A stretch of 64,000 nucleotides of DNA from Eutreptiella sp. 'Long Island Sound 2002' (taxonomy: Eukaryota; Euglenozoa; Euglenophyceae; Eutreptiales; Eutreptiaceae), in NCBI GenBank assembly GCA_964036045.1, contig OZ038379.1, positions 81,622,562 through 81,686,561 on the forward strand, written 5' to 3'. The notes below the pieces were generated by a model. It was not told the origin of the DNA, searched no databases, and saw only the letters and a program-made list of their open reading frames with translations. The translations under genes were made by a program, and so were the position numbers. Of the stretch, positions 253-34,860 are shown one piece after another; the stretch's first letter is position 1, and each line of letters begins with the position of its first letter.

Positions 253-329
253 CGGGTGCATGTTTTGTGGGCTGTATTTTCCTCCGCCGTTTGGTGTACC
301 AATGGTGGAGCGTATAAGATTGCTATAAT

Positions 330-620: not shown

Positions 621-659
621 ACGGAACCGGGAGCTGTACATATTGCGCATGTATTGCAA

Positions 660-1700: not shown

Positions 1701-1715
1701 CAGAAAAAGGAACTT

Positions 1716-2337: not shown

Positions 2338-2339
2338 CA

Positions 2340-2740: not shown

Positions 2741-2741
2741 A

Positions 2742-3670: not shown

Positions 3671-3875
3671 ATTGGTATTGGTATTGGCTGGGCGGTGTAT
3701 ATTCGGGGGGGTGTTTCCCCAGGGATTGTAGCAGTCACCTCATGATGGCGGCAGGACTATACATGTGTGTCATGCCCTCATGAGGACTATGCATACCCAC
3801 CACCGGCCCCATTGCCTCGGCATGGCTCCTTTTGGTAGCCTCGGGGTTGCTGTCCCGCTGCTTTTGCCTTCTTTT
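3671..3875 (+). repeat. Conserved 3' flank of the TTGTG array, copy 1
   Basis: It starts with (TATTGG)n, then GGCGGTGTATATTCGGGG, and runs through CCTCATGATGGCGGCAGGAC to GCTTTTGCC. The same block, about 95% identical by eye, follows the second TTGTG array at 12130-12333. Array plus flank therefore moved or duplicated as a unit. It contains a CCTCATGATGG ... CCTCATGAGG pair. Confidence 0.75.
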
Positions 3876-3879
3876 GGGT

Positions 3880-11455: not shown

Positions 11456-12130
11456 GACCCCGCCACCCCCAGTTTGTGTGGTGTTGTGTTGTGTTGTGTT
11501 GTGTTGTGTTGTGTTGTGTTGTGTTGTGTTGTGTTGTGTTGTTTTGTGTTGTGTTGTGTTGTGTTGTGTTGTGTTGTGTTGTGTTGTGTTGTGTTGTGTT
11601 GTGTTGTGTTGTGTTGTGTTGTGTTGTGTTGTGTTGTGTTGTGTTTTGTTGTGTTGTGTTGTGTTGTGTTGTGTTGTGGTGTGTTGTGTTGTGTTGGATT
11701 GGGTTGGGTTGGGTTGTATTGTGTTGTGTTGTGTTGTGTTGTGTTGTGTTGTGTTGTGTTGTGTTGTGTTGTGTGATGTTGTGTGGTGTGGTGTGGTGTG
11801 CTGTGGTGTGGTCTGGTGTGGTGTGGTGTGGTGTGGTGTGGTGTGGTGTTGTGTTGTGTTGTTTTGTGTTGTGTTGTGTTGTGTTGTGTTGTGTCGTATC
11901 GTGTCGTGTCGTGTTGTGTCGTGTCGTGTCGTGTTGTGTCGTGTCGTGTCGTGTCGTGTCGTGTCGTGTTGTGTCGTGTCGTGTCGTGTCGTGTCGTGTC
12001 GTGTAGTGTGGTGTGGGGTTGGGTTGGGTTGGGTTGGGTTGGGTTGGGTTGGGTTGGGTTGGGTTGGGTTGTGTTGTGTTGGGTTGGGTTGTGTTGTGTT
12101 GGCTTGCGTTGGGTTGGGTTGTGTTGTGTT
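11456..12130 (+). repeat. (TTGTG)n array, copy 2, with variant blocks
   Basis: Homogeneous TTGTG (11474-11775) gives way to GTGTG-type blocks (11776-11850), TTGTG, then TCGTG blocks (11893-12004), and finally TTGGG (12016-12070 and later). Each variant is locally homogenised, which points to successive slippage or conversion events. Long ORFs in all three forward frames and one reverse frame are artefacts of the repeat. Confidence 0.9.
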
Positions 12131-12333
12131 GTATTGGTATTGGTATTGGTATTGGGTGGGCGGTGTATATTCGGGGGGTGTTTTCCCAGGGAGTATGGCA
12201 GTCACCTCATGATGGCGGCAGGACTATACATGTGTGTCATGCCCTCATGAGGACTACGCACACCCACCGCCGGCCCCATTACCTCGGCATGGCTCCTTTT
12301 GGTAGCCTCAAGGTGGCTGTCGCGCCGCTTTTG
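12131..12333 (+). repeat. Conserved 3' flank of the TTGTG array, copy 2
   Basis: Near-identical to 3671-3875: (TATTGG)n, GGCGGTGTATATTCGGGG, GTCACCTCATGATGGCGG, ending CCGCTTTTGCCT. Similarity stops just before the T run that marks the 3' end of the minus-strand retrotransposon, so the retrotransposon seems to have landed in this repeat. Confidence 0.75.
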
Positions 12334-12362
12334 CCTCCCTCTCTTCTTTTTTTTTTTTTTAG

Positions 12363-12898
12363 GGGGTGGGTGTTTGAGGGTGAGTGGGGTTGTAGGATTC
12401 ATTGATTCTTTCATAGGTAATTTTTTTTTGCATTGTTCTTCTGTGATTCGTTTTCCTCTTGTTCGATTTCTGTGAGTTCCTTTACTTTGGATTCGTTCGA
12501 CATTGATTTGTTGTCTTCTGATCCTACCGTTTCTTGGAATGGAGCTGGTGCCGTTCCAGTTCTCCTTCTTGATTCTCTTTTCTGCATGAGCAGGGTGTGG
12601 GGAGTCGGGTGTGAGGGGCGGGAGTACTTTCACCATTTTGTGATCTGGCGCCCGCCTTGTTTGCTTTCCTCTGTTGGATCTTCTCGATATTGACGTCTAT
12701 CTCTCGCTCTCTTCTCTTTTCTTTTGCATTTGGTTGATAGGGTTTGATCATGGGAGACAGGGATTGCATGATGGTTTCTTTTTCCTTCTATGTGTTTGGG
12801 TGCCTATTTTTTTAGTTCTCGAGCACTGGGGTGTTGCAAAGTATTGGGAGCATTAACGCGACAGGCGACACGAACGCATTCGGCATTCTTTCATTCTT
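12363..12898 (-). other. 3' untranslated region of the retrotransposon
   Basis: About 540 bases between the last stop (12899) and the poly(A) tract. It is T-rich on the plus strand with short homopolymers and no convincing ORF. Confidence 0.45.
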
Positions 12899-13444
12899 TC
12901 AATCTGAATCCCAGTATTCAGTGTCATTCTCTGAATCATGAGCAGGTTCTAGAGAGGATTCACTTGCGGACGTGGAGATATTATCCCAATCTGGTACGGG
13001 AGGTTGTGGATGGTGGGCTTGATCTCGTGGAGCGCTTGGCCACTCTGCATGCAACAGGACTTTTGTAAGCTTGCCGGCAGTAGTGAGAGTCAGTTCTGTG
13101 TCAAAGCTGATGTGCAATTCTTTGGATACTCTGAATGTCACAGCCTTTGACTGCGCATGAATATCCGCAGGTGAGACAGGCGATACGTATACTTTGCTTG
13201 GGTCGGGGTTAGGGGCGGGGCATTCAGTTCTGGCATGGAAGGAGAGAGGGGTGACGGCTAGGGAAAGGAGGCTCAATGGGACCGGGCTGCTGTCGCACAT
13301 CTGTGAGCTATTCCGACACCCAACGAAGTTGAACGCCGCAGCAATTGCATGATACTCCCTTTCTGTTTTGAGTGGGGACCATCCATGCGGATTTGGTTTT
13401 GTAATCAGGCGTTCTGTGCGTACAGCAGGTGGCCATGTTTTCAT
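12899..13444 (-). pseudogene. C-terminal tail of the retrotransposon protein
   Basis: A 181-codon frame ends in an acidic tail (DSENDTEYWDSD, then TGA). It contains KPNPHGWSPLKTEREYHAIA and a long Ser/Pro-rich part. No domain is recognised. Position after the knuckle and before the poly(A) tract suggests it is the 3' end of the element's ORF. Part could be unrelated sequence read through. Confidence 0.4.
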
Positions 13445-13534
13445 GGAGCCTCGGCTGTTTAGATACTTTGCGGAGATGGGTATGGCATCGTCTGTGGTAA
13501 GGGGGCTTCCTTTGGCGCGAAGAACAACTCTTGA

Positions 13535-13900
13535 CTAGGTGATGCACACACGGAGGGGGGACCATGAGGTGCAAGGATCGAGCAGGAAGTCCGGGATTAG
13601 TCCCCATGCGTGTTTTTCGTCGTTCTTGGTGGTGATGAAGGCGGCCGGCGATTGCCATTCAATGGAGTATTCCTCCGTGGCTAGGCGGTTTGCAATGTTG
13701 GCAAAAGGCCAGAGGCATACGAGCGGGAGTACGATGCAAGCAGATTGCATATGGACACCCCAGCCGGTGGTTATGGTGCGGCAGAAAGGGCATGAGAATT
13801 CTTCTTTGGTTCCTTCATGACAGGGGGCAAATGTGCGGATTCAGTACGCTGTTGTCAGTCCGGCATTGGTGTACTTACCTTCGATGAGTCCTCCGCGCCA
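13535..13900 (-). pseudogene. Retrotransposon C-terminal zinc knuckle
   Basis: Minus-strand translation gives SCPFCRTITTGWGVHMQSAC, a C-x2-C-x9-H-x4-C motif. Non-LTR elements commonly carry such a CCHC knuckle after the RT/RNase H region, with a proposed role in template RNA or DNA handling. It is followed by a hydrophobic segment (IVLPLVCLWPFANIANRLAT) and the frame closes at 13535. The order RT, RNase H, knuckle supports a single element. It is degraded but the ligands are intact. Confidence 0.55.
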
Positions 13901-14169
13901 GACAACTTTGCAGTTGGGGTCTCCCGGGTATCCGTTGGTTGCCAGGGAGCTGTTGTACTGAACATCTAGTGTTCGTACGATGTCGGCCGCCAAGAATCCG
14001 TCGTGCTTCTGGCATTGGTACTTGGCCTTCCGCTACATGCGGAAGAGCTGATGTCGCAGTGTCGTCACTTTCTTTCTGCCACAGAGCCACACAGGTGTTG
14101 CTCTTGGTGTTGTGTTGTGCTAGAATGTAGAATCCCGGGATACTATGTTTGCACAGGAACTGTGCGTAT

Positions 14170-14535
14170 GACATGCACTATGCGTCAACCCAAATGCATT
14201 TGGATTGTTTGCCGCCTTCACCTCCGTGCATGGCTGTCAGGTTGTCGGATATGGCTCCTCTGATTCGGTTTGGATCGATCTCGAAGCGATGGATGAGCAG
14301 CGTATTGAGGAATTTTCCGCACCGTTCTGCGATCCAGCTGCTGCCTCCTTTGCATCTCACTTCGGAGCTAGCTTTTAGGGCTACTCCATTGATGTCGATC
14401 ACAAGCGCTAATCATGCATGGTCCTTGGTTTCCTTGTAGCCGTGAGACATGAGGATAATGTCGCCTTCAGGGATGTGCAGTACCTCGATTCAGATGGGGC
14501 ATTCAATGAGATGAGCTAGGAGGTGGAAGGAGATT
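14170..14535 (-). pseudogene. RNase H domain of the retrotransposon
   Basis: After a short linker (MSHGYKETKDHA, then an in-frame TGA at 14412) comes an RNase H-like core. VIDING carries the first Asp, SSWIAERCGKFLNTLL carries the Glu in the helix-A position, and RGAISDNLTAMHGG carries the third Asp. This D-E-D order and spacing is that of type I RNase H domains placed downstream of RT in many non-LTR elements, where the enzyme removes the RNA template. The frame continues through a TAG at 14178 into SYAQFLCKHSIPGFYILAQH. The first stop lies exactly where a Trp would be expected before LALVID. Confidence 0.65.
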
Positions 14536-15062
14536 CTATGTTGGGCCATCCATTGTTGCGCAATTGTCCAATCTTGGTGGCCGGTTACGTTGGGCTTGCT
14601 TTACAGCATGGGCATTTTGGTGGTTTCTCTCGTGTATGTGCTTTCGCTGTTGCAGGCAAGGAAGAGGGCATTGATGTGTTGGCATTGTAGGCGAGAGAAT
14701 GCGTGGGGCTGCGAAGCCCATGTGGTCCAGGCCTGCCCAGAGCATCTTGTTCGGAGTGCGGACTGGGATGCAGAGTGCTTTGTAGACTATCCTCTTGATT
14801 TGTATTTGTTGCGGTTCAACCCATTCTGCTTGCACAGGGATGGCCGAGAACACATACTCGACCACGGACAGAATGTACGTGATAAGGATGCGGAGGATGA
14901 GGACGAATGAGGGCTGCAGGCGCGCGAGTGCTTCTTGCAGGATGGAGGAGCGTTTGGCGAATTTCAGTAGCGGTTCTTTGGGGATCTCTCCTGGGATGAG
15001 GGGAATTCCAGTCATCTTAAGGTCTCATTTCTGGAGGGAGAATCCGTACCGCATCGTCTCCG
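14536..15062 (-). pseudogene. Reverse transcriptase, segment downstream of the catalytic palm
   Basis: This continues the RT protein after the insertion point (from MRYGFSLQK). The stretch with LRILITYILSVVEYVFSAIP, IQIKRIVYKALCIP and RTPNKMLWAGLDHMGFAAP matches the region after the RT palm in LINE-type elements, where a hydrophobic helix is followed by a Lys/Arg-rich I..IK..V and a P-R-T-P-N loop. An in-frame TGA at 15025-15027 (between LQK and DLK) sits where homologues would tolerate Trp. The frame then ends near 14536, after which the protein continues in another frame, so a frameshift lies close by. I recognise the family from layout, not from an alignment. Confidence 0.65.
15055..15062 (+). 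repeat. Left target-site duplication of element A
   Basis: CGTCTCCG, repeated exactly at 25175-25182. Removing the DNA between them rejoins the retrotransposon frame. Confidence 0.8.
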
Positions 15063-15109
15063 CAGGTATGGGTATAGCAACCCAATTGGCTATGAGACTT
15101 CAGACTTCA

Positions 15110-15420
15110 GACTTTTATGGACCATCCCCCCAAACCCCCAACACCCAAGCCCCCCATGATAGACCTCCCCCCCCCCCCCCCAATATCAGACTAGTGGACA
15201 AGTGGAAAATGGGAAAATATGGAACCTCGGAAAACTTTCAACATGGGCGAAAGCATAGTCCCCCCCCCCGTTTCGAATAATACAAGTGCAGCCCCCCACC
15301 CCACCAGACACACAGCAACTTCACTTCAGGAAAATGGGGATAAAAGGGCAGTACCCCCCCCCCCCACCCCCACAGAGACACGGGAACTTCACTTCAGGAA
15401 AATGGTGGGTTGGGGAAAAT
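15110..15420 (+). repeat. C-homopolymer-rich leader of element A
   Basis: Runs of 6-16 C alternate with short A-rich words. AACTTCACTTCAGGAAAATG is repeated at about 15318 and 15389. The same kind of C-run leader follows the left end of element B (34475-34620). Confidence 0.55.
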
Positions 15421-15477
15421 ATGCGTGCATGTGTGCATGTCTTGTTGTTTGCTCTCTTTTCGCTTGCAGCGGTACGT

Positions 15478-15600
15478 AAGGTGAGTAAGCCCAGGAGGGG
15501 CCACCCCCTGGTAGATTCAATTGCAATTGAGCTTGAGATTGCGGTAGGTAAGGTGAGTAAGCCCAGGAGGGGCCACCCCCTGGTAGAGTGGAAAATAATA
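15478..15600 (+). repeat. 72-bp tandem duplication with a hairpin and splice-donor-like core
   Basis: AAGGTGAGTAAGCCCAGGAG then GGGCCACCCCCTGG occurs twice with a 72-bp spacing (GTGAGT at 15481 and 15553). CCAGGAGGGG/ACCCCCTGG forms a tight hairpin. GTAAGGTGAGTAAG resembles overlapping 5' splice sites. A pyrimidine tract ending TTCGCTTGCAG lies just upstream. Confidence 0.6.
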
Positions 15601-15619
15601 CGCTGTCCCAAAACAGGTC

Positions 15620-15755
15620 CTTCCCAGCAAGCAAGCTTAAGGAACTCCGCCCGTTCTCTTATAGAACGTAGGGCGGAGCCCCTGGGTAACCTAAACAAGG
15701 GTTTACCGAGCGCACCACGTGTGGCCTACCCTTTAATGCGTCATGTGCATGCATA
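15620..15755 (-). repeat. Dispersed hairpin element, copy in A
   Basis: On the minus strand: GCATTAAAGGGTAGGCC, then GCTCCGCCCTACGTTCT, AGAGAACGGGCGGAG, then GCTTGCTTGC. The arms CTCCGCCC and GGGCGGAG flank an inner GTTCT/AGAAC stem. The same element is at 35765-35885 on the plus strand inside B. It could be a small non-coding RNA gene or a short mobile repeat; no product can be assigned. Confidence 0.55.
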
Positions 15756-15885
15756 GGAGATACAATAATACGGCGAGGGTGGTTAGGTTCCTCAACCCAA
15801 AACAGTGCCTGCATGTGAACCTCTCAGGTGGTGTAGGTCAGGGTGATTGGTGCACTTTGCTGTCTTGGACAGCGCAATTTTTTGC

Positions 15886-16440
15886 CTAGCAAAAAGGGCG
15901 CAGATCACACCAAACAAATGGGGAAGCAGCGAAGAAGATGATGAACGACTCCGCCATGAACCACATGTACTCGCGCTGCGCCGCAGTGCACTCCCTCCCT
16001 CCAAGCCCTGGCAGGGGTACGCGTAATGGCGTCCATGTCAGGCCACAGCAGCTTAGCAGCTCTGTGTTTTGCTCGCTTTTCACAGGAAGGCCATTAGGGC
16101 CTACGACCTCGTTGACAGCAGCACCAAGTAGCGTGTGCGTGTAGGAGTGGAAGGCCTGGATGATGTCATCCTTCGAGGGCTGGGTCCACAGTAGGGTGTG
16201 TAGGACCTATAGTGTGTGTGTCACTGTCCTGCCAGTTTCCTGGAATTTTAACAGGGTCTTCGGTGGGCAGTGGCAGTGGTAGCCTAGGTTTTGGCCACAT
16301 AGCAAACAGGCGTTTTCATGCCTCATAGCTTTCGGCCACCCCTCCCCTGCAGTAGGTAGGTAGTTAGACAAAACCAATACCTTGGCGTTAGCGCTGGGTA
16401 TTCCCCAAGGTTTTCTGGTGCCAGTACAGAAATTGGGCAC
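15886..16440 (-). pseudogene. Unidentified ORF inside element A (one in-frame TAG)
   Basis: One minus-strand frame runs from about 16440 to 15886 and is interrupted only by a TAG at 16207-16209. Before the stop it reads ENACLLCGQNLGYHCHC, a Cys/His-rich knot (C-x2-C ... H-x-H/C) that could bind zinc. After it come TLLWTQPSKDDIIQAFHSYT, LGAAVNEVVGPNGLPV, and a C-terminal REYMWFMAESFIIFFAASPF. Composition is protein-like throughout and unlike the surrounding repeats. TAG could replace Trp (HTL/W/VLH) or mark a splice site (CTATAG/GT). No family is recognised. As the only other ORF in A besides the helicase, it is a candidate element protein. Confidence 0.45.
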
Positions 16441-16599
16441 CTAGGGGCGGAGAGACGTGGGGCGTACCCAATCGCACCGTGTAAAGACATCCGCCGGGTT
16501 TAGCAAGGGTGTAGGCTTGGGTACAATTAGGATACCATTTGTGCAGCTTGCTCCAGGACTTAGGCTAGCACACTCACACAGACATTTTGCTGTTGTTTC

Positions 16600-18300
16600 A
16601 ATGTGATTATGTGGAACACCCTAGAGGTGTTCTGGTTGTGTGTGGTCTAGGCCTTGGCGCCTACGACCATATACCCCTTCGGTGGTGATGCTGACAACAG
16701 CTGAGAAGGGGTTTTGACATGTTTGTTTCTGCATCCGATCAGAATGTGCTCACAATTTCATTATGCAGAACATCCTTGAGGTGTTTTAGCTGTGTGTGGT
16801 CTAGGCCCTGGCGCCTACGACCACAGACCCCTTCGATGAAGAAAGCGCTGACAACAGCTGAGAAGGGGTTCTGATTTCCTGGTATTTGCATCCATGTATT
16901 GCGAGCCCGTCCCGATTTGTTGTTAGTAGATGTGGGTTGTGCAGTTTCCAACCATTTTCAGCCCCTTCGATGATGGCGACGTTGTGTGTGCACGGGCCTG
17001 CTCCGTGGAACCTGGGTCTGGGCTGCAGCAGGGAGCCATGCGCAGACCCCTGCAGGGACCTTTTTCTTAGGCCCTGTTTTGTGTTCCACGGATTTTAAAA
17101 ATGCCACTGCCAGTGCCAATGCCCAAATCCTCATCCTAGTACAGCCAATGCCGCACCTGATGTGGGTCCCCAAGCAAACAGTTGACACGCTTAGCATGTA
17201 ACACTGTGGTACAACGCTGTGGTACACCGCTCCCCAAAAAACCATGAATCCAATGCAAGGTCCTTTGTGCACGTGCAGGGGTATAGCTGAGAAGGGGCTC
17301 TTCTGTGTTGTTGTGTTGCCAAGTGTGTGTTACAGGTGTTATGCATCCCCTTCGATGATTTTTTGTTACCAAGGGCGCAAACGTAGGGGGATGCTCCGCC
17401 GACATCGGGTCTGTGCTTCCCCCATAGCAGAGGCACAGACTCCCGCAGGGACCTTTTTCTTAGGCCCTGCTTGGGTTGGCAGAGCTGTTGAGAAAGTGGG
17501 GCGTGAAAGAGCATTTGCCTAAGCCTGGGAAAATCAGTACCATCCAACTCTACGTTCCACCGGGAAGGGATCCAGCTTCGCATCAGCAGCATCCCTAAGG
17601 AGCCCCAGAGACACATTTCAAACATCCCCACGTATGGCGCCGGGAGGCTGACGCTTCCACCAAAAACAATGTAATGAGAAGGGGCTCTGCTTTGTCTGTT
17701 TCGGTTACTTTGCTGATACTGAGACGGGGGTGTGCTTTGCTGATGTTTGTGTTTTGGTTTGTTTTTATTTTATTTGATGGTCTGCTTTGCTGATGCTTGG
17801 TGTTTTGATTTGTTTTTATTTTATTTGATGGCCCCGATTTGTAGGTATCAGCATGCACATGTGTACCCAGGTTGTGCTTTGTATGTATGCATCCCCTTCA
17901 ATGATGTGTCAGCCATGTGGGAACAATCCGTCCGGGGACCTACTGTTTTAGGCCCTATTTTGTTGGATGGAGCCAAGCATCTCCCCATACTCCAACGGAT
18001 ATGCATGTTTGCCAAACTTGCCGAAAACCACTGCACTCAGCCCTCCTGCACCCTTCTGCTGCACGACATATGCCAGCCCCTACCTTGACACCTTGTCTGG
18101 GTGATTGCGCAGATTCCGGCCCCAAGGTTTCTTTTTCATTGTGCCTTGCTGGGCGCAGTACTATGTGGCGGACTGCATTTGAGTTGGGTGATGCAGAAGT
18201 CCCACTGTCATCCAAAAAAAAACCTGAGAAGGGGCTCTGCTATGTGGGTATTGGTGGTTGACAACTTGGAGATAATTCTTTTTGATTTAATTTGGTCCTG
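16600..18300. repeat. Field of diverged direct repeats with AGAAGGGG / CCCCTTCGATGA modules
   Basis: A 154-bp tandem pair (TGTGGTCTAGGCC at 16641 and 16795) carries GGCGCCTACGACCA, CCCCTTCG and GACAACAGCTGAGAAGGGG. Further modules with GCAGGGACCTTTTTCTTAGG (about 17050 and 17440; variant near 17935), GCATCCCCTTCGATGA (17345; variant 17890) and GAGAAGGGGCTCTGC (17285, 17681, 18225) repeat every 390-490 bp. GGGCCTACGACC...TTGACAGCAG in the ORF to the left is a diverged relative, so the field may derive from duplicated exon pieces. Frames of 60-145 codons exist but none is convincing. Confidence 0.5.
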
Positions 18301-19633
18301 ATCTCCTAGTATATGTAATTGTTGCACGTTGTGCCTCTTACTGAGACAAAGGGAAATGCGTGTATTGCATAGGAGACACGTGTGCACTGAGCCTCTTCGA
18401 CACATAGGGCACTCTTTTGTTACCTACCTCCCCCTCGAGGCGAGGAAGTGCGTCTTGGGTCTAGACCATTGCGTCTCTGACCCAGACATTGGAGTTGGGC
18501 CTGCCCCAGCACTCACGCGTTCGTCCCCCACCCACTGCGCGCCGCAGTTTGCCATGTCGTCTAGCCCCCTTAGCGTGGTCTCTTCCGTCACCTCCAGCCC
18601 TTCGTTCCCGGAATGTGGTTGGGGGGATCTGCCGGAGCTATGGCGGTTTGGAGACCAACCCCCCTCGCCACCGTGGGACTCTGACGCTTAGAAGTGTCTC
18701 AGTGAACTGGCCTCGCCCCAGCCTCCATTGCCAACACCGCCCCCCTCTCCGCCTTCACCAACAACCTCTCCAACGCCAGTAAGTCCTCCACGGAGACCCC
18801 ACGTTACCTCAACCCCATACCTGGTAGCCCTGGAAGCTGTGGAGGAGGCCCTGATGTGCACTGCCGTTCCACCGCCATCCCCCCCACAACCCCCCAAGTA
18901 CGTACCCAAGGACCCCCCCCCCCAAACCCACTGTTCACGGGCCCTACAGTGCCAAAACATTGCAGCTCATCCGGGAAAATCACGGGGGTGGGGCTCAGTA
19001 TTTCGTGGCCGGGGTGCTGAACCGCCAAGCGATGTACCGGTTTGCGGTTCAGCAGCCCAAGAAAAACCCCTTGCGGGTGTGGCAGGAGGGCATGCGAATT
19101 AGCCGTTCGCATTTCCTTTCCACGGACGAGGAGCATGCAGCAGTGGTGCTTGAAATCCTGTGTGCTACCCCAAAACCCCCCCGTATCCCAAAGCCGGCCC
19201 CACAACCTGTGCCTCGTCGGCCACTGCCCCCTCCAGCAATTGATCAGGTGACCCTGACCCAGTATAGCAGGCACCGCCGCTCCTCACTCCTCCCATTGGC
19301 TCCGGCCCCACAGCGGCCATGCCCCGTCCCGCAGTACGGTTCATTGCTCCAGTGGCGTGCGTCTCAGTCCGCCCCCCCGCCGGAGAGGCCGCACTTTGGG
19401 TCATTGCTGCCTGCGCAGGCCCCCCCGCAACGTCCACAGACTCCGGCGAGACGTTCCAATTTCCAGCTCTTCGGCAAGTGTGCACCAGGCGTCTCTTACA
19501 CGTAGGGCACTCTTTTATTTTCAACCTCCCCCTTGAGGCGAGGAAGTCCGTCTTGGGTCTAGACTGTCGCGTCTCCGACCCAGACATCTGAGTTGGGCCC
19601 GCCCCAACACCCACGCGTTCATCTCTCACCCAC

Positions 19634-20110
19634 TGCGGGCCGCCGAGCCGCAGCAGTTCGCCCTCGGTCCCCGGCCACAGCGCCCCGACAAGGGTCGTCG
19701 TCTACCCCCCAACCCACCTACTGCGGGCCGCTGAGCCGCAAGAGTTCGCCCTCGGTCCCCGGCCACAGCGCCCCGACTAGGGTCGTCGTTCCTCTCCGTA
19801 CCCACCCACTGCGGGCCGCCGAGCCGCAGGAGCTCGCCCTCGGTCCCCGGCCACAGCGCCCCGACCAGGGTTGTCGTTCGTCTCCGTACCCACCCACTGC
19901 GGGCCGCCGAGCCGCAAGAGTTCGCCCTCGGTCCCCGGCCACAGCGCCCCGACGAGGGTCATCTTTCAACCCCAACTCACCTACTGCAGGCCGCCGAGCA
20001 GCACGAGTTTGCCCTCGGTCCCCGGCCACAGCGCCCCAACCAGGGTCGTCTTTCAACCCCCAACTCACCTACTGCAGGCCTCTGAGCCGCAGGAGTTCGC
20101 TCTCAGTGCC
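19634..20110 (+). repeat. Coding-region tandem repeat of about 85 bp (six units)
   Basis: ACTGCGGGCCGCCGAGCCGC, AGGAGTTCGCCCTCGGTCC and CCGGCCACAGCGCCCCGAC recur about every 85 bp. Two forward frames are open through it. The helicase frame reads SRKSSPSVPGHSAPTRVV, Ser/Pro-rich and presumably disordered. Confidence 0.7.
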
Positions 20111-20149
20111 GGGCCACAGCGCCCCGAACCGGACAACATGCCCAACGGA

Positions 20150-20512
20150 GGGCAAACACAGCCCCATGGCCATTGGCAAGGCAAAGACCCTCAGCAAGGC
20201 AAAGGCAAAGGCCCACAGCAAGGCAAAGGCCCACAGCACGGCAAAGGGTATGGCCTTGCGCAGGGCAAAGGCCCTCAGCAAGGCGAAGGCCATGGCCCTC
20301 AGCAAGGCAAAGGCCATGGCCCTCATCAAAGCAAAGGCCCACAGCAAGGCAAAGGGCATGGCCCTGCGCAAGGCAAAGGCCCCCAGCAAGGCAAAGGCAA
20401 AGGCCAAGCCCATCCACAAGGCAAAGGCCATGGCCTCCCACAAGGCAAAGGTCAGGCCCCCCCACAAGACACAGGCCAAGGCCCTCCGCAAGCCAAAGAC
20501 AAGGCCCGGACC
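20150..20512 (+). repeat. QGKG-encoding minisatellite within the helicase gene
   Basis: Units of 12-18 bp (CAAGGCAAAGGCCCACAG) encode GKGPQQGKGHG repeats: Gly, Lys and Gln-rich, positively charged, likely disordered and nucleic-acid binding. It directly precedes the folded part (TFAETLAHVDYDIDTNPTEG). Confidence 0.7.
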
Positions 20513-23500
20513 TTTGCTGAAACCCTTGCCCACGTGGACTATGACATTGACACGAACCCAACCGAGGGATTCACCACCCGTTGGGCTGATCGCGATGCGT
20601 ATGTCCACAAGGCCTCCTTGGTGCACACCGTGCATGAGATTGCCGCTGCCCGGAGGTGGGCATGGGAACATGGTGCCCAGAGGGACCTATGGTTTGAGAG
20701 GGTCGAGGGGCAGAAGGAGCACAAGCATGGCGACATGGTCATCGTAATAGAATGGGTTGCTGAGATCGAAGTTAGGAGCAACTACGAGCTGACCGATGTG
20801 GATCTCATCCATGGATGGGACATGAAGCTGGCAGATGTCGACACCGTTGACGTGGCACCAAACCCAGACTGGATTGGCAAGGTGCAAGGTGATGGCACCT
20901 CCGGTGACATGGTGACCATTGTTTGTGCGAACAAACTGCCCGTTCTGCACATCCGCAGGTGGTGGTGCTGTGTCCTGCCTCATGAGCCAGCGTTCCGGTC
21001 GTTGCGTGAGGAGATACGGACGGGGGAGGCCTGGAACGCGTTGCTCAATGCCTGCCGGCAAGAACCACAGCTATCTGCCAGCCTCCCTGACGAAGACCAG
21101 CACATCTTGCGTCACCTTGTGGAGCATCATAACCTGAACACCTTCCAAGCCTTGGCTATCCGGCAATGTCTGGATGAGGGTGCTCTTGTCTCCTCCATGA
21201 CTGGGGGGGCCGGCACGGGGAAGTCCGAGAACGTGGTGGCCTGCATCAAGGCAGTGATGTGGCAGCAGGGGTACTTCGACCCATGCATCCCGAATCCCAA
21301 GGCGCCAGATTCGATACACACTGGCAAGAAAGGGGGGGGGGGGCACCCACCGACAAACCCCCTCGGGCATGCATCTTGGTCACCGCCCCAACAAACGCAC
21401 AAGTCAACAACCTGATGCTGCGGGTGATCCAATCGGCAGAACAGGATCCTGCCTTCTCAGCGGCGGTCCTGAAGGATCATCCTGTGCCCTGGATGCGGCT
21501 CCGAGCTGCAAGGGGCCGAACCCCCCCAAATTTGCAGCCGTACAACCAGGCAGGAGTCCAAGAGGCGTTGGACAATCATCCGGACTGGGATGGCACATTT
21601 GCATGTGCCCTCAACAGCTGCCGGGTTCTCTTTGCAACAGCCGGTATGGTCGCCACACGGCGAAGTTGTTGCTTGCGGGCCCCCCCGGTGACCCACAAAC
21701 TCGGTTCGCATTCAGCTTCGTGGATGAGTGCTCGAGGCATAGCATCCCAGTGGGTCTGGACTTGGCGGCTTTTGGGGCACAGTGCATGTTTTGCGGGGAC
21801 GCCGGTCAACTGCGCCCATACAGTGCCATCACTCTTCTCGCATCTAAGAAAGGGGAGAAAGGGGGCAAGGTGACGGCTCAACAAATTGCTTGGCCGCAGT
21901 CCGAGCATTTTGTTAACCTCAATGTGCACCTCCACCAGGGACCAGGGATGCAGTACGGTGACTCGCAGCGCTTCGCCACAAGTAGTGTGTTGCAGTTTGT
22001 CCTGTACCGTACAAGGTGTACTGCGTGTGTCCAAACCCAGCAGTTCCGCATGGACCTGCCTTTGGCAACGGTGGTGCGTGCGCTGTTCACGGGGGGGGTC
22101 TTTGGGCTGGTACCCCTCCTCCTCCCCAGCATTACCCCCCCCGGTGTTGGGAGGGCAACACATCCGCATAGTCAGCACAGACGATCCTGAGTGGAGACAG
22201 CAGGTGACACGGTACGGGATGTCGCCCGACCGGGTGGACAGACTAAGAAGGGAGATTGGCAGAGCATGGGAACGCCTTGTCATGGACGACGCCATGCGCG
22301 CCCAGGGGAACCTGAGCCGGGAGGAGGTCTGGCTGGTGCTGCACTTTCTGGAGCATGCACACAGTGCAAATGTGTACCCCCCAAGTCATTGGCAATCGTC
22401 ACCACACACTTTGCGCAAATGCTATGGCTGCAGCACTGTGTGTGGGAGGCAGGGCGCAGGCTGCATGGGGACCAGGCATATGAGTGTGTGCAGACCATCG
22501 CCACCCTTGACCGGTACCAGGGTTTGCAGGCTCCGGTTGTCCTTGCCTCCCTGGTGTCCTCGGAGCCGGGGATCATGAAGGACGTGGTGCGGGCAAACAC
22601 ACTAACCAGCAGGGCCCAATCTGAGCTGCATCTGTTCGGGCCCTTTTTCGGTTGGGAGGAATGCCTCCTCACTGCAGGTTGGTTGAGTGGGTTGAGGGTG
22701 ATGGCTGCCGAACTGTGGCAGTCACCATCCCAAGAGGACGTACAGAGGGTGCGCCTTCCAGGGGTTCTGTACCAACAGCCTACCCTTGCCAAACCAGAGC
22801 TGGGTGTCATTTACAAGTTCAAGGGGGGGGGTTGGGGGTGGTGGGGCAGTGGCTTTGGAAACCGTTGAGGATTGACCCTTGGGGATCCCCCCCCCCCCCA
22901 GAGTGACCAATTGTTGGACTGGGAGCGGATCATGGCCAACAAGAGGGTTGGGACATAGGAGATGCGGCTGCGCCTCCAATCGGGGGAATTAGAACCAATC
23001 CACCTGGGGGTGACCCTCCCCGATTTCACGGAGTGGGCATTGCCCTACATCCTCATCAGGGATGAGGACACAGACTGGGCAGGGTGGCATGACATTAAGG
23101 GGTTGGCGAGAGTGTGCCACACACAGGATTTGGCGGACGACGAGCAAAGGCCTGTGCAGTTTCTGCTCACCAAGCCCTTCCGCAACGCCCAAACCTATTG
23201 CACCCCCCCCCCCCCCCGCCGGTCAGCTGCCTACCGCATTGTGTCTCTGCCTGTGTGGCATGATGCCTACAGGCACGTGGACATGGTAGGCTTCCTGGGC
23301 GATGACTTCTGCACACCCTTGGGGGTGTATGTGGCGTCTTTGCTCCATGGGGTGAGAGAGTGTTTGGGGGGAGGCGCTGTGTGTTCCCCACATGCCGTTC
23401 ACCGTGGACATACCCAGCACTGTGGTTGGAAGCCATTGCCGGATCGTGTGAAGCGGTATGTCCTTGGCATGGTCGCACCGGTAGAGAAGCCTACATCATC

Positions 23501-23534
23501 AATTGGCATTCGTTTCGGACCGCAAAAATCATGA

Positions 23535-23930
23535 CATGACCCTGGCGGTGACAGGCTCTGTGGAACATTGGACAACCTCCACTGTGGCGCATGTGGAGGT
23601 GTGTGTGGGACATCGGACGTTCCGAATGGGTGGTACTATGTCCGCATGGAGCGTCATGGGTAGCGGGCCACAATCTTAGGGTCTCTATTGTCCGCCTCTC
23701 GTCTATGTGCAATGTTTGCTTCCCTGCTTCAATGTGTCATGAACCAAATCAGGGGCTCTACAGAAACCCCCCTCCTCCCCCGAATCCTGAGGCATGTACC
23801 CAGGATCCCCATGAGGTGATCCAAGTTGGTGTGATGTCCTTGCCTTGGCGCAATGACTTGCACCCCTAGAATGTGTGACAAACTGTGTGGGGCATTTTGG
23901 CAGTCTAGGCAGCAGCAGGGCTTTGCCATG
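23535..23930 (+). other. Possible read-through C-terminus and 3' region of the helicase gene
   Basis: If the TGA at 23532 is ignored, the same frame continues for about 45 codons (HDPGGDRLCGTLDNLHCGAC, then GWYYVRMERHG) to a TAG near 23658. The composition looks protein-like. The rest, to 23930, is unassigned. Confidence 0.35.
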
Positions 23931-23934
23931 GAAT

Positions 23935-24435
23935 AATTTGCACCTCCACGAACGTTATTTCATCACTCCATGAATTTTTTATGCCCCTCCGTGAATTATT
24001 TCACCCCTCCGTGAATTACTTATGCCCCTCCGTGAATTATTTGATACCTCCGTGAATTATTTATGCCCCTCCGTGAATTATTTCACCCCTCCGTGAATTA
24101 CTTATACCCCTCCGTGAATTATTTGATACCTCCCTGAATTACTTATACCCCTCCCTGAATTATTTGATACCTCCATTAGTTATTGAGGCCCCTCCGTGAA
24201 TTATTTGATACCTCCGTGAATCATTTATGCCCCTGCGTGAATTACTTTATACGTCCGTGAATTATGCAGGCCCCTCCGTGAATTATTTGATACCTCCGTG
24301 GATTACTTATGCCCCTCCGTGAATTATTTGATACCTCCGTGGATTACTTATGCCCCTCCGTGAATTATTTGATATCTCCGTGAATTATTTATGCCCCTCC
24401 GCGAATTATTTGATACCTCCGTGAATTATCCTTAT
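23935..24435. repeat. 20/21-bp minisatellite (CCTCCGTGAATTATT)
   Basis: About 24 units of CCTCCGTGAATTATTTGATA alternating with CCCCTCCGTGAATTACTTATG. Sporadic variants (CCCTGAATT, CCATTAGTTATTG) show decay. Confidence 0.85.
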
Positions 24436-24454
24436 TTTCCCCCATTTTTCAAGA

Positions 24455-24860
24455 GGTATGTGTTTTTTTTTTGGCGGGGGGGGGGGTACTTGTGCCACAT
24501 TGTTCCCAGAATTGCCTTTTCCGCATTTTCAAACCCCCTTTTTTCCCCAACCCAACCCATCATTTTCTTGAACTGCTTGGTTGTGTGTTTTTTGGGGGGG
24601 GGGGGCTTGTATCAGACTTTTCCTAGTGTTCCCTTGTCCACATTTTCCATTCCAACCTATGTTCCCTAGCGCACCATTTTCCCGAGGTGAAGTGCCTGTG
24701 TGTCTGTGGGGGGTGGGGTATTGCACTTTTATCCCAATTTTCTTGTGAAGTTGCTATGTGTCTTGGGGGGGGGTCTGCACTGTTATAACCATTTTCTTGA
24801 ACTCAAGTTCCTGTGTGTGTGTGTGGGGGGGGGCGCACTTGTATCAGACTTTTACTTGGA
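24455..24860 (+). repeat. G-run punctuated repeat of about 110-130 bp
   Basis: Runs of 8-12 G recur at about 24474, 24594, 24708, 24763 and 24823. Each is followed by CTTGTATCAGACTTTT- or TTGCACTTTTAT-like words and then CATTTTCTTGAACT. It lies just inside the right end region of element A. Confidence 0.6.
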
Positions 24861-24884
24861 TGTGCTCTAATGGTGGGTCCGCAA

Positions 24885-24936
24885 CACGACATGCCAAATC
24901 AGACTTCAGACTTCAGACTTTATACCCATAGCTGAT
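24885..24936 (+). repeat. Internal extra copy of the element A right terminus
   Basis: CAACACGACATGCCAAATCA, a doubled GACTTCA, and ACTTTATACCCATAGCTG: identical to the true right end at 25123-25174. It is followed by ATGGGGACCTATGGGGG rather than by target DNA. Confidence 0.75.
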
Positions 24937-25122
24937 GGGGACCTATGGGGGCTTGTGGGGGCCTATGGAGGCCTCTGGGGACCTATGGGGGCTCTGCGTG
25001 GCATGAAATAAGGGGAGGCCCCCCAGAGATCGACCAGGGGGGGTGCCAACCCCCCCAGGGGCTTTATGGACCTGCGGTACATGAAATAAGGGGTGCCCCC
25101 CCAGTGACCTACCAGGGGGGGC
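24937..25122 (+). repeat. Short GGGGACCTATGG seed array and GAAATAAGGGG repeat
   Basis: Between the two right-terminus copies lie about six units related to GGGGACCTATGG, then two copies of CATGAAATAAGGGG followed by a C run, GACC, and CCAGGGGGGG. This is the same 12-mer that makes up the 3.4-kb and about 13-kb arrays to the right. Confidence 0.65.
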
Positions 25123-25174
25123 AACACGACATGCCAAATCAGACTTCAGACTTCAGACTTTATACCCATAGCTG

Positions 25175-25182
25175 CGTCTCCG
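25175..25182 (+). repeat. Right target-site duplication of element A
   Basis: CGTCTCCG, identical to 15055-15062. Confidence 0.8.
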
Positions 25183-26240
25183 CTTCACCATCAACACACA
25201 GCATAGTGCTGTTTTGTGGTTTTGCTCCGTACATTTTCATCTTCTTGCACGGATGATCCTTCAGCCGACCAGCAGCCTTGACTGTACGTGTTGTACAAAT
25301 GGGCCATGTCTTGGAGTGTGGTGGCGAATCCTCTGCAGTCGTCGTTGTACACGATCTCGAGTACTTTGATGAGTGGGTCCCAGGGGGCTGCTAAGCTTTT
25401 GAACTTGTTCCTAGCGTGTGGAGAGAGGTCCGCTGGAATTTTTTGGTGAAGAGTACTCCTTGGTTAAATTTGGTGCGCACGCATGTGGTGGTGGCGTGTA
25501 GGCCGACTCCCATTGAGTCTCCTTGTGATCCTCCATGACGCATCGCGTAAGGACCTGCAAGCCTGAATGGCGATACCACGTAAATTCGGAATGAGTTGAA
25601 GAATTTTTCTGCCCATTCTTCTACGTGAAGTGCTTCGTTCGGAAGAGGCAGTCCATGTCTTTTCTCATAGTGTTGCAAAATGTGTTACTTTCATCCCAGC
25701 CGATGATGAATACTTTGCCATAGTAGTGCGCGAACCACCATGTCAGCCATCGGCATGTGATCGCGCACATCTGTAGTGATAGCTGCTTTCTGTAGGCAAA
25801 GTGGTTGGGGGGAACCCAGGCGGTCCATTCTAAGCGTTGTTGTTGGCAGAGGGAGCGTTGCTTGATTCTAGTCGACGAAGGTATGGTTCCAGGAGGATGG
25901 GGCCGCTGTTGGGAATGAGCCATTTAGGCTGCTTCTTGATTAGGCATAAGTGAAGTACGGCGCAAAACAGCTCGTCATGAGCCCCTTGTGTGAACGCTCG
26001 TAAGAGGGATGTGAACAGGTAGTGGCTGAATCCGTCTAGTCGGCTGACGAGTGCTTGGGGTAGTTGTTCTAGTGACATGGCGTCCGAGGAGGGTCGGCGT
26101 ACTAGATCAGTGAATTGTTGGAAACCTGGAGGTTTGCCGGCGGGGTCTTCAAGGGAGAGGCCTTTGTGTACGTGTTGTAGCTTCAACATGTGAGTGAGGA
26201 AGTCGGGCTTGTCCTCTGGTACTTCGGGCGTCAGTTCCAT
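25183..26240 (-). pseudogene. Reverse transcriptase domain (fingers and palm)
   Basis: In minus-strand order: LHLCLIKKQPKWLIPNSGPI (finger motif, K..K...RPI-like), NHFAYRKQLS (the F-x-x-R-K-G-R-S motif), KVFIIGWDESNTF (motif A with the first catalytic Asp), GGSQGDSMGVGLHA (the P-Q-G-D-x-L/M-G motif), and EIVYNDDCRGF (motif C; YNDD at 25339-25350 corresponds to YxDD). It then runs KKMKMYGAKPQNSTMLCV, DGEAET, and is cut at 25182 by element A. RT makes cDNA from the element's RNA at the target nick. At least three frame changes separate these motifs, but all catalytic residues remain recognisable. Element identity as non-LTR rests on the downstream RNase H, the zinc knuckle, the poly(A) tail and the lack of LTRs, integrase or protease. 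Confidence 0.75.
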
Positions 26241-26945
26241 TCACTTTTTCACATGCTCATGATCTAGGGCTATGTGTGGTCTTCCGCTGTAGAGTTCTTG
26301 AGCTTGCTTGAGCATCTCTTCTTGGAGTTCAGCTTTTTCTTTGGGGGAAGTACTTGCCATCGGCGCTGATTTCGCCCACGACTTGGAACTTGTTCTTTTT
26401 CAGCTTTATGGCGTGAGTTGTGGCTGATGTGATGGAGACTCCTTTTAGTTTTCAAGAGGGAAGTGGAGTTTCACTGCCATCGCCTTGTTGTTTCTGTTCT
26501 CCCACCATTGGGCAGTTTCAGCCGAGCGTCTTCCGCTGTGAGATTGCAGTGCCGCGGCCAGGGCTCTACCATCTGTTGATGAGAGGGACATTTTCGACCG
26601 GCGGCGGGGTATGATGTCGTCCATGGCCGTGAAGTACATGTGCATGACTGCGGTGGGATGTCATTCAGAGATGTTGGCCCATGCAAAGAGGATGGAACAT
26701 GGGTTTCCAACTTCCTGGAAATCCTCCCGATTTAAGAGGCGGAAGTCATATCTCTTGTTGGAGGGGTCCGTTGGTTTCATCCGGTCGCAGTCGATAGCAA
26801 GGGTGTATTGTTGCGCATTGTGAGTGCTGAGGCCAGGCAGTTGATCTCTGGGGCAGGCCACACATGGGGTGCTGCTGCGGAGGAACAGCAAGTCTACCTC
26901 TGTCATTGAGATTCCTTTCCGGGTAATGACGTGGTTCGTTGGCCG
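26241..26945 (-). pseudogene. Retrotransposon N-terminal region (pre-RT)
   Basis: Minus-strand frames read, in order: STPCVACPRDQLPGLSTH (a C-x2-C), NKRYDFRLLNREDFQEVG, ILFAWANISE, an in-frame TGA (26661), HPTAVMHMYFTAMDDIIP, then after a frame change ATTHAIKLKKNKFQVVGEIS and KEKAELQEEMLKQAQELYSG, and a TGA at 26241 before MELTPEVPEDKPDFLTHMLK. The last part is charged and probably helical. I cannot identify an endonuclease fold with confidence. Both stops lie where Trp would fit (E/W/H and K/W/M). Confidence 0.5.
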
Positions 26946-27534: not shown

Positions 27535-30500
27535 AGTTGGGGACCTATGGGGAACTTGGGGGACCTGTGGCGGCCTATGGCGACCCATGGGCACCCGTGG
27601 GGGCCTATGGGGACCTATGGGTGCCTACGGGGACCTTTGGGGACCTATGGGGACCTATGGGCCCCTATGGGGTCCTTTGGGGACCTATGGGGACCTATGG
27701 GGAACTAGGGGCACCTATGGGGGCCTTTGGGGTCCTATGGGGGCCTAAGGAGACCTATGGGGACCTTTGGGTACCTATCAGGACCTTTGGGGACCTCTCG
27801 AGACCTTTCGGGACCCATGGAGACCTATGGGGGCCCATGGGGACCTATGGGGACCTATGGGGGCCTATGGGGGCCTATTGGCACCTATGGGGACCTTTGG
27901 CACCTATGGGGGCCTATGGGGACCTATGGGGGCCTATGACCACCTATGGCCACCTATGGGGACCTTTGGGGACCTATGGGGACCTTTGGGGTCCTATGGG
28001 CATTTCTGGGGTCCTTTGGGCACCTACCGGGACCCATGGGGACCTATGGGGGCCTATGGGGACCTATGGAGACCTTTGGGGACCTATGGGGACCTATGGG
28101 GGCCTATGGGGGCCTATTGGCACCTATGGGGACCTATGGGGACCAATGGGGACCTATGGCCACCTATTGCCACCTACGGGGACCTTTGGGGACCTTTGGG
28201 GACCTATGGGGACCTTTGGGGTCCTATGGGGACCTATGGGGTCCATTGGGGACCTCTGGGAACCAATGGGAGCTATCGGGGCTTGTGGGGACCAATGGGG
28301 GCTTATGGGGACCTATGGGACCCCGTGGGGACTTGTTGGCATCTATGGGCACCTTTGGGGACCCACTGGCACCTTTGGGGACCGCTTGGGGCCTATTAGC
28401 ACCTATGGGGGCCTATGGAGACCTATTGGGACCTATCCGGGCCTGTGGGGACCTATGGGGACCTATGGGGACCTATGGGGCCCTATTGGGGCCTATCAGG
28501 ACCTATGGGGGCCCATGGGGACCTCCGGGGACCTATGGGGGCCTATGTGGACCTATGGGGACCTTTGGGGACCTATGGGGCCCTATGGGGGCCCATTGGC
28601 ACCTTTGGGGAGCTATGGGGACCTTTGGCGGCCTATAGGGACCTATGGGGTCCTTTGGGGACCTCCGGGAACCAATGGGACCAATGGGACCTATGGGGCT
28701 AGTGGGGGCCTATGGGGGCTTGTGGGGACCTACAAGACCCTATGGCAACTCGTCGGCATCTATGGGGACCTTTGGGGACCTACTGGCACCTATGGGGCCG
28801 TATGGGGGCCTATGGGCGCCTATGGAGACCTATGGGGACCTATCATCACCTATGGGGATCTCTGGGCTCCTATGGGGACCTATGGGGACCCTTGGGGACC
28901 TATGGGGGCCTATGGTGGCCTTTGGGGACCTATGGGGGCCTATGGGGGCCTATTGGCACCTTTGGAGACGTATCGAGGCCTATGGGGGCATACCGGCACC
29001 TATGGGGACCTTTGGGGTCTATGGGGGCCTACGGGGCCTATGGCCACCTATGGCCACCTATGGAGACCTTTGGGGACCTATGGGGACCTATGGGGGCCTA
29101 CAGGGACCTTTGGGGACCGATGGGGGCCTATTGGGGCCTATGAGGGCCTGTTGGCACGTTTCGGGACGTATTGGGGCCTATGGGGGCCTATTGGGGCCCG
29201 TGGGGACCTATGGGGACCTTTGGTAGCTTATAGGGTCTGTGGGGACCTATGGGGACCTATGGTCACCTATGACCCCCTGTGGAGACCTTTGGGGACCTAT
29301 GGGGACCTATGGGGACCTTTGGGGTCCTATGGGAACCTATGGGGGCCTATTGGCACCTATGGGACGTATCGGGGCCCTTGGGGGCGCATTGGCACCTATG
29401 GGGACCTTCCGCGGCCTATGGGTGCCTATGGGGACCTATGGGGACCTATGGCCACCTCGGGCCGCCTATGGAGACCTATCGGGACCTATGGGGACCTATG
29501 GCGACATTTGGGGACCTCTAGGAACCTATGGGACCTATGGGGGCTTGTGGGGCCTTACGGGAGCCTATGTGGACTCGTTGGCATCTATGGGGACCTTTGG
29601 GGACTACTAACATCTATGGGGCCGTGTGGGGGTCTATGGGCACCTATGGAGACCTATGGGGACCTATCAGTACCTATGGGGACCTATGGGTGCCTATGTG
29701 GACCTATGGGGACCTATGGGGACCTACGGGGGCCTATGGGGAATTATGGGGACCTTTGGGGACCTATAGGGGCCTATGGGGGCCTACTGGCACCTATGGG
29801 GTCCCATGGGGACCTTTGGCGGCCTATGGGGGCCTATGGGGACCTATGGCCACCTATGGCCACCTATGGAGACCTTTGGACACCTATGGGGACCTATGGG
29901 GGCGTATGGGGACCTATGGGGGCGTATGGGGACCTTTGGAGACCTATGGGGGCCTATGGGGGGCTATGGTGGCCCATGGGGACCTTTGGTAGCGTATAGG
30001 GTCTATAGGGACCTACGGGGACCTATGGCCACCGATGGTCACCTGTGGAGACCTTTGGGGACCTATGGGGGCCAATGGGGACCTATGGGGACATTTGGGG
30101 ACCTATGGGGGCCTATGGGGGCCTATGGGGGCCTACTGGCACCTTTGGGGACGTATTGCGGCCTATGGGGGCCTATGGGCATGTATGGGGACCTATGGGG
30201 TCCTTTGGCAGCCTATAGGGGCCTATGGGGACCTATGGCCACCTATGGCCATTTCCGGAGACCTTTGTGGAACTATGGGGGCCTATGGGGACCTATGGGG
30301 ACATTTGGGGACCTATGGGGTCCTTTGCGGACCTCTAGGAACCTATGGGACCTATCGGGGCTTTTGGGGGCCTATGGGGGCCTGTGGGGACCTATGGGAG
30401 CCTGTGGGGACTCATTGGCATCTATGGGGACCTTTGGGGACCAAGGGGCACCTATGGAGAACTCTCGGGGCCTATGGGCACCTGTGGCGGCCTATGGGGA

Positions 30501-30897
30501 CGTATGGGGCCCCATCGGGGCCTGTAGGGACGTATGGGGATCTATGGGGCCCTATCGGGGCCTATCAGGACCTATGGGGGCCTATGGGGACCTGTGGAGA
30601 CCTATGGGGGATTACCGGGTTCTATGGGGACCCGTGGGGGCCTACGGGGACCTATGGGGACTTGTTGGCACCTATGGGCACCTATGGCGACCTATGGGCG
30701 CCTATGGGGGCTTGTGGGGACGTATGGGGGCCTATGGGGACTCATTGGCATCTATGCGGACCTTTGGGGGCCTATATGCACCTACGGGAGCCCATGGGGA
30801 CCTATCGGGACCTATGGGGGCCTATGGGGACCTTTGGCGACCTGTTGGCACCTATGGGGACCCATGGGGACCTATCGGTGCCTATGGGGACCTATGG
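27535..30897 (+). repeat. 12-bp minisatellite GGGGACCTATGG, array 1 (3.4 kb)
   Basis: About 280 units of GGGGACCTATGG with frequent GGGGGCCTATGG, TTTGG and ACTATTGGCACC variants. The unit has no stop in any forward register (it reads GDLW, GTYG or GPMG), so overlapping frames of up to 820 codons exist. I do not regard these as proteins. The G-rich strand is always the plus strand. Confidence 0.9.
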
Positions 30898-31055
30898 TGT
30901 GGGGGGCATCATCTTTTTGCACCCCCATCTTGAACCCCCCCCCCCTTTCTCCCAGCATCAGATCTATGTAAGACAGATCACACATCTTGTTGTATACAGT
31001 GCCAAAACAACATGCCATATACGACATTAGACATGAGACTTTATACACAATCCCC
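30898..31055 (+). mobile_element. Right end of element C (same family as A and B)
   Basis: After the array: a C run, CAACATGCCATATACGACAT, TAGACATGAGACTTTATACA and CAATCCCC. It aligns base by base with the right ends of A and B (mirror image GGGGATTGTGTATAAAGTC against CAGCTATGGGTATAAAGTC). The terminal CTG is changed to CCC. A coding frame begins immediately after. I could not find the left end; it is either deleted or lies at or before 26945. Confidence 0.6.
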
Positions 31056-34408: not shown

Positions 34409-34474
34409 CAGGATTTTGTATAGCGACCAAGTTGGCCATCAGACATCAAATATCCGACTTTTATGGACCGCCAA

Positions 34475-34860
34475 TACCCAAACCATAAACCCACCTCCCC
34501 CAGCCCCCTTGTGATGTAGTACCCCCCCCCCCCCCCGCAATGGAGGATGCCCCCCTCCCCCGACAATGATTCGCCCCCCCCCCCCTCTGGCCCTTCCCTA
34601 GTCCTTCCACCCACCCCCACTCATGAGTGCTTTCCTGCATTAGGAAGTATGGAACATGATTCGGAAAAGACCCCCTGCTTGGTGTTGTGTGTTTGTTTGT
34701 AGGAAGTATGGAAACTGCACCCACTCACTACAGTCTTCGAGGTGTAGATTTTCGTTCAGTGGCCTCAACCCTAGTTTTGGACGGCCATCAGACACCATTT
34801 ACCGTAAACCAACATATTTGGCGCATGTATAGGCATATGTGCTCCCACACATAGACACAG

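Follow-up and report, generated by a model that had tools for sequence, protein, structure and literature searches.

A 10-kb helicase-carrying insertion in the Eutreptiella genome as a probable deletion derivative of a family of giant cut-and-paste elements

Is a large insertion that carries a helicase gene, and in which no transposase is recognised, a mobile unit in its own right, or what is left of a larger one? The question is raised by a 64,000-nt stretch of DNA from Eutreptiella sp. 'Long Island Sound 2002' (contig OZ038379.1), hereafter the window, in which an element of 10,112 bp occupies positions 15063-25174. Taking together the ends, the duplications, a deletion junction at two loci and the gene content, all of which were observed directly, we consider it probable that the element is non-autonomous and arose by internal deletion within a 22-26 kb cut-and-paste family, whose second gene (gene 2) would most likely encode a hAT-like transposase. 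A preliminary description of the window had reported a perfect 8-bp duplication and inverted ends agreeing at 13 of 14 bases, and sequence comparison confirmed both:

15055..15062, no strand: target-site duplication, left copy CGTCTCCG, 8 bp
15063..15076, plus strand: left terminal inverted repeat CAGGTATGGGTATA
25161..25174, minus strand: right terminal inverted repeat CAGCTATGGGTATA
25175..25182, no strand: target-site duplication, right copy CGTCTCCG, 8 bp

Thirteen of the 14 bases at 15063-15076 agree with the reverse complement of 25161-25174, whereas none of 200,000 random pairs of 14-mers, used as a control, reached at least 13 matching positions. The end motif CAGSTATGGGTATA occurs with zero mismatches at three sites in the window, namely both ends and 24921-24934, and the latter belongs to an inner right end, since the 54 bp at 24881-24934 are identical to those at 25121-25174. 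A scan of viral contigs with the left-end pattern gave 0 matches, although that collection may exclude records from the genome of the window, and an Rfam scan of the window gave 0 matches as well. The further proposal that joining the flanks restores the reading frame of a split retrotransposon stood in part: an open stretch of 81 amino acids spans the junction in the proposed frame, compared with 34 and 15 amino acids in the other two minus-strand frames, but Pfam found no reverse transcriptase on the minus strand, the one scanned, of the flanks (12130-15055 and 25175-26943). A frame that is open for 81 amino acids and holds no recognised domain is weak evidence for a split retrotransposon, and we rejected it as strong evidence.

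The genome (2.28 Gb in 2,205 contigs) was searched with the first 200 bp of the element, giving 738 candidate places; of the 40 that were scored, one was the window itself and the other 39 were 94-97% identical to the query. Ten of these 39 left-end copies, c1 to c10, were fetched at ~17 kb each, with some extended. Right ends with perfect 8-bp duplications were located in four of them, inside the 17 kb fetched for c1 and c4 and after extension for c6 and c9. The genome does therefore hold other copies with the same two ends, each with a duplication of its own, which supports the earlier claim of a complete mobile element carrying a helicase. In c2, extended to 25 kb, the right end was not found, and c3, c5, c7, c8 and c10 had none within the ~17 kb fetched; similarity of c5 to the element ends after about 1.4 kb. 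Downstream in c2 (L012, L037), a ~1.34-kb tandem unit is followed by retroelement-like frames with gag-like, reverse-transcriptase-like and recombinase-like stretches, judged by eye, and past 15.96 kb the continuation of c7 looks like an unrelated repeat.

The five two-ended elements (the window element, c1, c4, c6 and c9) have inverted ends that agree at 13-14 of 14 bases and five different perfect 8-bp duplications, in that order CGTCTCCG, ATGGGGAC, GTGGAGTC, GAAGTGAT and TTCCAGCC; their lengths, in the same order, are 10,112, 9,812, 12,004, 22,188 and 25,707 bp. In c6 and c9, which lie at different sites, both the helicase and gene 2 are inside the duplications, with a common order of helicase, minisatellite, gene 2 and right end. 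In c6 the helicase sequence is spread over several frames at about 4.2-7.2 kb of the copy as fetched, and the minisatellite, with a unit of 41 bp, extends over 5.9 kb. Apart from the helicase gene, gene 2 is the one long open frame with relatives found inside the mobile unit. Its 5' part is common to c2, c4 and c7, where it stands beyond the same 41-bp minisatellite, and proline-rich repeats akin to the ones in the helicase gene precede it, as units of 88 bp in c2, c4 and c7.

It could be supposed that the large copies are chimeras, in which nested insertion accidentally brought together a helicase element and a gene-2 element unrelated to it. Mosaics are indeed common here, with a partial duplication in c4 and with c2 and c7 running into other repeats, but the same gene order inside perfect duplications at the different sites of c6 and c9, the gene-2 5' part that c2, c4 and c7 share beyond the same minisatellite, and the helicase-type proline-rich repeats before gene 2 all argue against such a joining, which we regard as very unlikely.

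Relative to this full-size arrangement, the window element corresponds in alignment to c6 1-7928 followed directly by c6 21679-22188; between the two, gene 2 is missing entirely, as is the greater part of the minisatellite. Outside the helicase gene, its parts are as follows:

15063..15589, plus strand: left terminal region, with 93.6% identity to the corresponding end of c6 (22.2 kb)
15586..15764, minus strand: segment inverted relative to c6 (c6 716-538), from the alignment to c6
16857..18190, plus strand: 1.33-kb segment absent from c6, with no clear coding signal, from the alignment and a codon-usage scan
23966..24429, plus strand: 41-bp minisatellite, 11.3 copies (5.9 kb in c6), from repeat analysis
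24426..24440, no strand: internal deletion junction, c6 7928 joined to 21679, from the alignment and common to c1
24440..24934, plus strand: original right terminal region (93.5% identity with c6 21679-22188), whose last part is the inner right end at 24881-24934
24935..25120, no strand: captured DNA, 186 bp between the two right ends, from comparison with the c1 flank
25121..25174, plus strand: second, outer 54-bp right end, which bounds the insertion

The same deletion junction is present in c1, at another site and with another duplication, the piece around the junction being inverted there. Because the junction is identical in two elements that differ in site and duplication, the deleted form must itself have moved at least once. 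One side of the junction lies inside the minisatellite and the other just 3' of gene 2. The window element, having lost gene 2 through a junction common to c1, is no transposase-less unit by nature, and the idea that a helicase element without a transposase is the natural form finds no support in c6 and c9, which have the same ends and carry the second gene.

The deleted form stands at two sites with different duplications and so moved while itself lacking gene 2. This would also fit an autonomous helicase-only unit, in which the helicase protein, perhaps by way of its C-terminal extension, transposes the element, while gene 2 rides along as cargo or was acquired later. The protein does have a conserved extension of ~230 residues with no assigned family, and gene 2 is without a recognised transposase domain. 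Against this, a junction that lies within the minisatellite on one side and just past gene 2 on the other points to a deletion and not to an ancestral state, c4 has lost most of gene 2 (and carries a partial duplication) through breakpoints other than the junction of the window and c1, albeit in deletions that may post-date its insertion, and candidate D, D and E motifs occur in order in gene 2. We consider an autonomous helicase-only unit very improbable. In the mechanism proposed for the deletion derivative, the gene-2 protein would cut and join the element ends, internal deletions could arise by abortive gap repair after excision, the deleted forms would then be moved in trans, and the helicase might assist transposition or repair.

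The 186 bp between the two right ends suggest where the window copy came from. With the alignment starting exactly at the c1 boundary (offset 0), their first 61 bp and the right flank of c1 agree at all but one position (60/61), compared with 53 of 61 at the next best offset in the c1 satellite and 51 at best in the satellite array of the window at 48515-57494; what follows these 61 bp comes from a dispersed ~79-bp tandem repeat. Because of the 60/61 match, the simplest reading is that the window copy probably moved from the c1 locus or from a duplicate of it. A second right end downstream would have been used in that move, so that 186 bp of foreign DNA was carried along. The donor must have differed from the present c1, which now has no second right end and does have an inversion. 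The captured flank thus suggests that a nearby second right end is usable and that the element can take foreign DNA with it.

The gene that the deleted form retained, gene 1, occupies three tracts of the window:

18813..20499, plus strand: proline-rich N-terminal portion of the helicase gene, its frames broken, with tandem repeats of 88 bp and of the 24-bp type; start approximate
20522..22709, plus strand: UPF1-like superfamily 1 (SF1) helicase domain, split into five frame pieces, most of the shifts falling at or close to G/C runs; approximate end
22740..23531, plus strand: conserved C-terminal extension of the helicase protein, with no Pfam match; start approximate

Read through its five frame pieces, the domain matched PF13086 (E=2.1e-11) and PF13087 (E=1.1e-7), with a match to PF13604 below the cut-off, which bears out the earlier assignment to UPF1-like SF1 helicases. 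A PDB profile search, in which 41 of 42 relatives were aligned, matched a 5'-3' RNA helicase-like protein of solved structure (E=9.8e-12), with weaker matches to DNA2, Aquarius and SEN1. The SF1 motifs are present in the relatives P0003 and P0018 and altered in P0021, and the P-loop lies outside P0010. By its AAA_11 and AAA_12 domains together with the SF1 motifs, gene 1 is classed, on sequence, as UPF1-like. Protein-database searches, in each of which the ~8,000 candidates sharing most words were scored, gave 42 helicase relatives, 18 at 76-87% identity and 24 at 43-55%; these, like the relatives of gene 2, may all come from one species. An AlphaFold model of a helicase relative, with 41 of 42 relatives aligned, had a predicted local distance difference test (pLDDT) score of 38, and no inference was drawn from it. 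A six-frame Pfam scan of about 15100-25000 gave the AAA domains and one weak DUF4389 match. The codon-usage scan, which is biased towards the helicase because it was trained on the helicase itself, showed a sustained plus-strand signal at about 18.8-23.5 kb and scattered weak values elsewhere. The frameshifts near G/C runs may be assembly errors or decay. Across the window and fetched copies, the ratio of nonsynonymous to synonymous change (dN/dS) had medians of 0.81, 0.73 and 0.83 in three segments (36, 35 and 21 pairs), values that are noisy because some alignments cross frameshifts and that we read as decay of the sampled copies and not as constraint.

Gene 2 is the candidate transposase gene. 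In c6 it is an open frame of 1,475 amino acids with a UCH/USP-type (deubiquitinase) domain (PF00443 UCH, E=2.4e-6, 27.8 bits versus a curated cut-off of 23.9) followed by a long region with no assigned family; in c9 it is split over two frames. Thirty relatives were found at E<=0.01 and 109 with a profile at E<=0.1, including clusters of 231 and 215 members. An identification of its 5' part as LINE-like proved wrong, the stretch being common to c2, c4, c6, c7 and c9, and the 5' frames (572, 485, 401 and 430 amino acids) had no Pfam match. Two relatives, P0043 and P0048, share the blocks LLDGSDRQ, VDGASNLG and CPAEAAVERAIS. A candidate triad picked by eye in P0043 consists of D240, D312 and E687, with spacings of 71 and 374 and with the E in CPAEAAVERAIS, and the sequence around the D, D and E falls at the 75th, 85th and 95th percentile of conservation between P0043 and P0048. 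When the E block, likewise picked by eye, was compared with the hAT segment L040 of the same genome, only 1 and 2 of 1000 shuffles reached the score; against L047 the similarity was weaker, though better than 971-989 of 1000 shuffles. The dN/dS of gene 2 was 0.44 for c2-c6 and 0.54 for c6-c9, pairs that share sequences. On this evidence gene 2 is probably, with appreciable room for doubt, a diverged hAT-like DDE transposase.

A number of results weigh against this picture of the gene and of the family. As regards the gene, c6 itself is missing ~26 residues including the E block that P0043 and P0048 have, and the segments of that block used in the hAT comparison were chosen by eye. The block showed no similarity above shuffles to the in-genome hAT segments L042 and L045; for the whole of P0043 and P0048 against L046, 21 and 95 of 200 shuffles reached the score; and the RW block expected of hAT lies only at the 45th percentile of conservation. 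The c2-c9 pair gave a dN/dS of 1.23, on 9 synonymous changes. Pfam at E<=10 gave no match for the transposase part of the c6 protein or for four of the 30 relatives (P0043, P0048, P0045 and P0052), and weak unrelated matches or none for two short pieces of gene 2. A PDB sequence search with gene 2 gave no credible match, and hhalign of ten relatives against five in-genome hAT segments, with very shallow profiles, scored below reversed and within shuffled controls. An AlphaFold model of a 290-residue piece (56 of 109 relatives aligned) had a mean pLDDT of 48 and gave no Foldseek match at E<=0.001, and nothing was inferred from either. As regards the family, right ends were located in four of the ten fetched copies; no sampled copy has both genes intact, gene 2 of c9 being frameshifted; no listed frame runs through the whole helicase gene in any copy; and the c4 losses, as noted, may be later than its insertion. 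The earlier statement that no known transposase is recognised was right and extends to gene 2 of the larger copies, which has no transposase profile match. Because the Pfam, PDB-sequence, profile and fold searches returned no recognised transposase, membership of hAT is unproven.

Gene 2 might instead encode a DDE transposase outside hAT (P, KDZ/Zisupton, MULE-like or a new superfamily), with the rest of the model unchanged. The methods tried found no hAT profile match, and the C/DxxH motif, which is common to hAT, P, MuDR, Kolobok and Dada (PMC9587614), stands at the expected place in P0048 (DVSH at +17) and not in P0043, both having DILH at +163/+164. Zisupton, too, makes 8-bp duplications (PMC12730594). 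This alternative is possible, although we favour it clearly less, as the candidate D, D and E, in their order and spacing, look hAT-like, as does the VER block, and recognisable hAT elements are abundant in the same genome. The D-D-E spacing of hAT transposases, with Hermes as an example, is close to that of the candidate triad in P0043. Among the 150 hAT dimerisation domains scored in the genome, out of 1,757 candidates, all those listed (L040-L047) exceeded the curated cut-off.

With a hAT-like transposase as the preferred reading, the family can be set beside known elements; the hint in the preliminary description at a hAT- or Zisupton-like cut-and-paste element is plausible. Ends of the CAG type occur in hAT, and the present family has CAG...CTG ends. 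Internal-deletion derivatives moved in trans are found in Ac/Ds, which is a hAT system. Further likenesses to hAT are the candidate triad as read by eye in P0043, the VER block, which is like the hAT dimerisation segment, and the 8-bp duplications (PMC12730594), which here flank five of five two-ended elements. The differences are that gene 2 has no match to PF05699 or another hAT profile, that the present family is 22-26 kb long with a helicase gene and a UCH domain, and that C/DxxH is found in one gene-2 subfamily and not in both. With Zisupton/KDZ the family shares 8-bp duplications (as in Zisupton) and accessory genes within the element, and many fungal DNA transposons carry a TET/JBP gene (PMC12730594); the accessory genes are unlike those found here. 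No KDZ match was obtained from Pfam-A at E<=10 for the four gene-2 relatives, a library that may not hold every KDZ model.

Two other kinds of helicase-bearing element were considered as identities and rejected. KolobokH duplications are TTAA, compared with 8 bp in the present family. It resembles the present family as a DDE transposon with a helicase, which is of the RecQ type (PMC9587614), whereas the helicase here is UPF1-like (PF13086, PF13087) and is encoded by a separate upstream gene. The likeness to Helitrons lies in their being mobile elements with a helicase, and the present family has inverted ends and duplications and no Rep domain in the Pfam scan. Helitrons are not known to have inverted ends or to make duplications, and they encode a Rep-helicase fusion. 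Helicase-bearing cut-and-paste elements are therefore already known (KolobokH, with RecQ), while a literature search among open-licence papers found neither an element with a UPF1-like helicase nor a UCH-transposase fusion, nor the pairing of the two.

The anatomy of the family is now described: its ends and duplications, its full-size copies, a derivative by deletion that occupies two sites, and the locus that probably served as donor. Its presumed transposase is invisible to current profiles and possibly represents a new transposase lineage. We propose only tentatively, and with more doubt than belief, that these giant elements (22-26 kb) form a new superfamily of eukaryotic cut-and-paste transposons, combining a transposase-deubiquitinase fusion with a UPF1-like helicase partner; if so, the protease perhaps shields the transposase or counters host silencing, and the helicase perhaps helps to process or repair very long elements. 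What a helicase and a deubiquitinase do in a cut-and-paste element is the question that the family raises.

The window holds possible older relatives as well. At 34409-57724 lies what may be an old relative ('element B'), with a left end at 34409 and made up largely of 10-bp satellites; its positions 34418-34541 are 72.6% similar to c6 10-121, its possible 8-bp duplications, TTGCCGAC and TTACCCAC, match at 6 of 8 positions, and it has no convincing coding similarity to the helicase gene or gene 2. A second relic, at 31003-31055, is like the right end of the family, 31003-31049 being 78.7% similar to c6 22136-22182. Diverged 10-bp satellites of the CCTATGGGGA type form very long arrays at 27538-30897, 42863-47217 and 48515-57494, and a satellite of this kind is also the insertion site of c1. 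Pentanucleotide arrays (TGTTG/TTGTG) lie at 3300-3670 and 11474-12132, and between them, at about 4-9 kb, are diverged repeated segments of ~1 kb.

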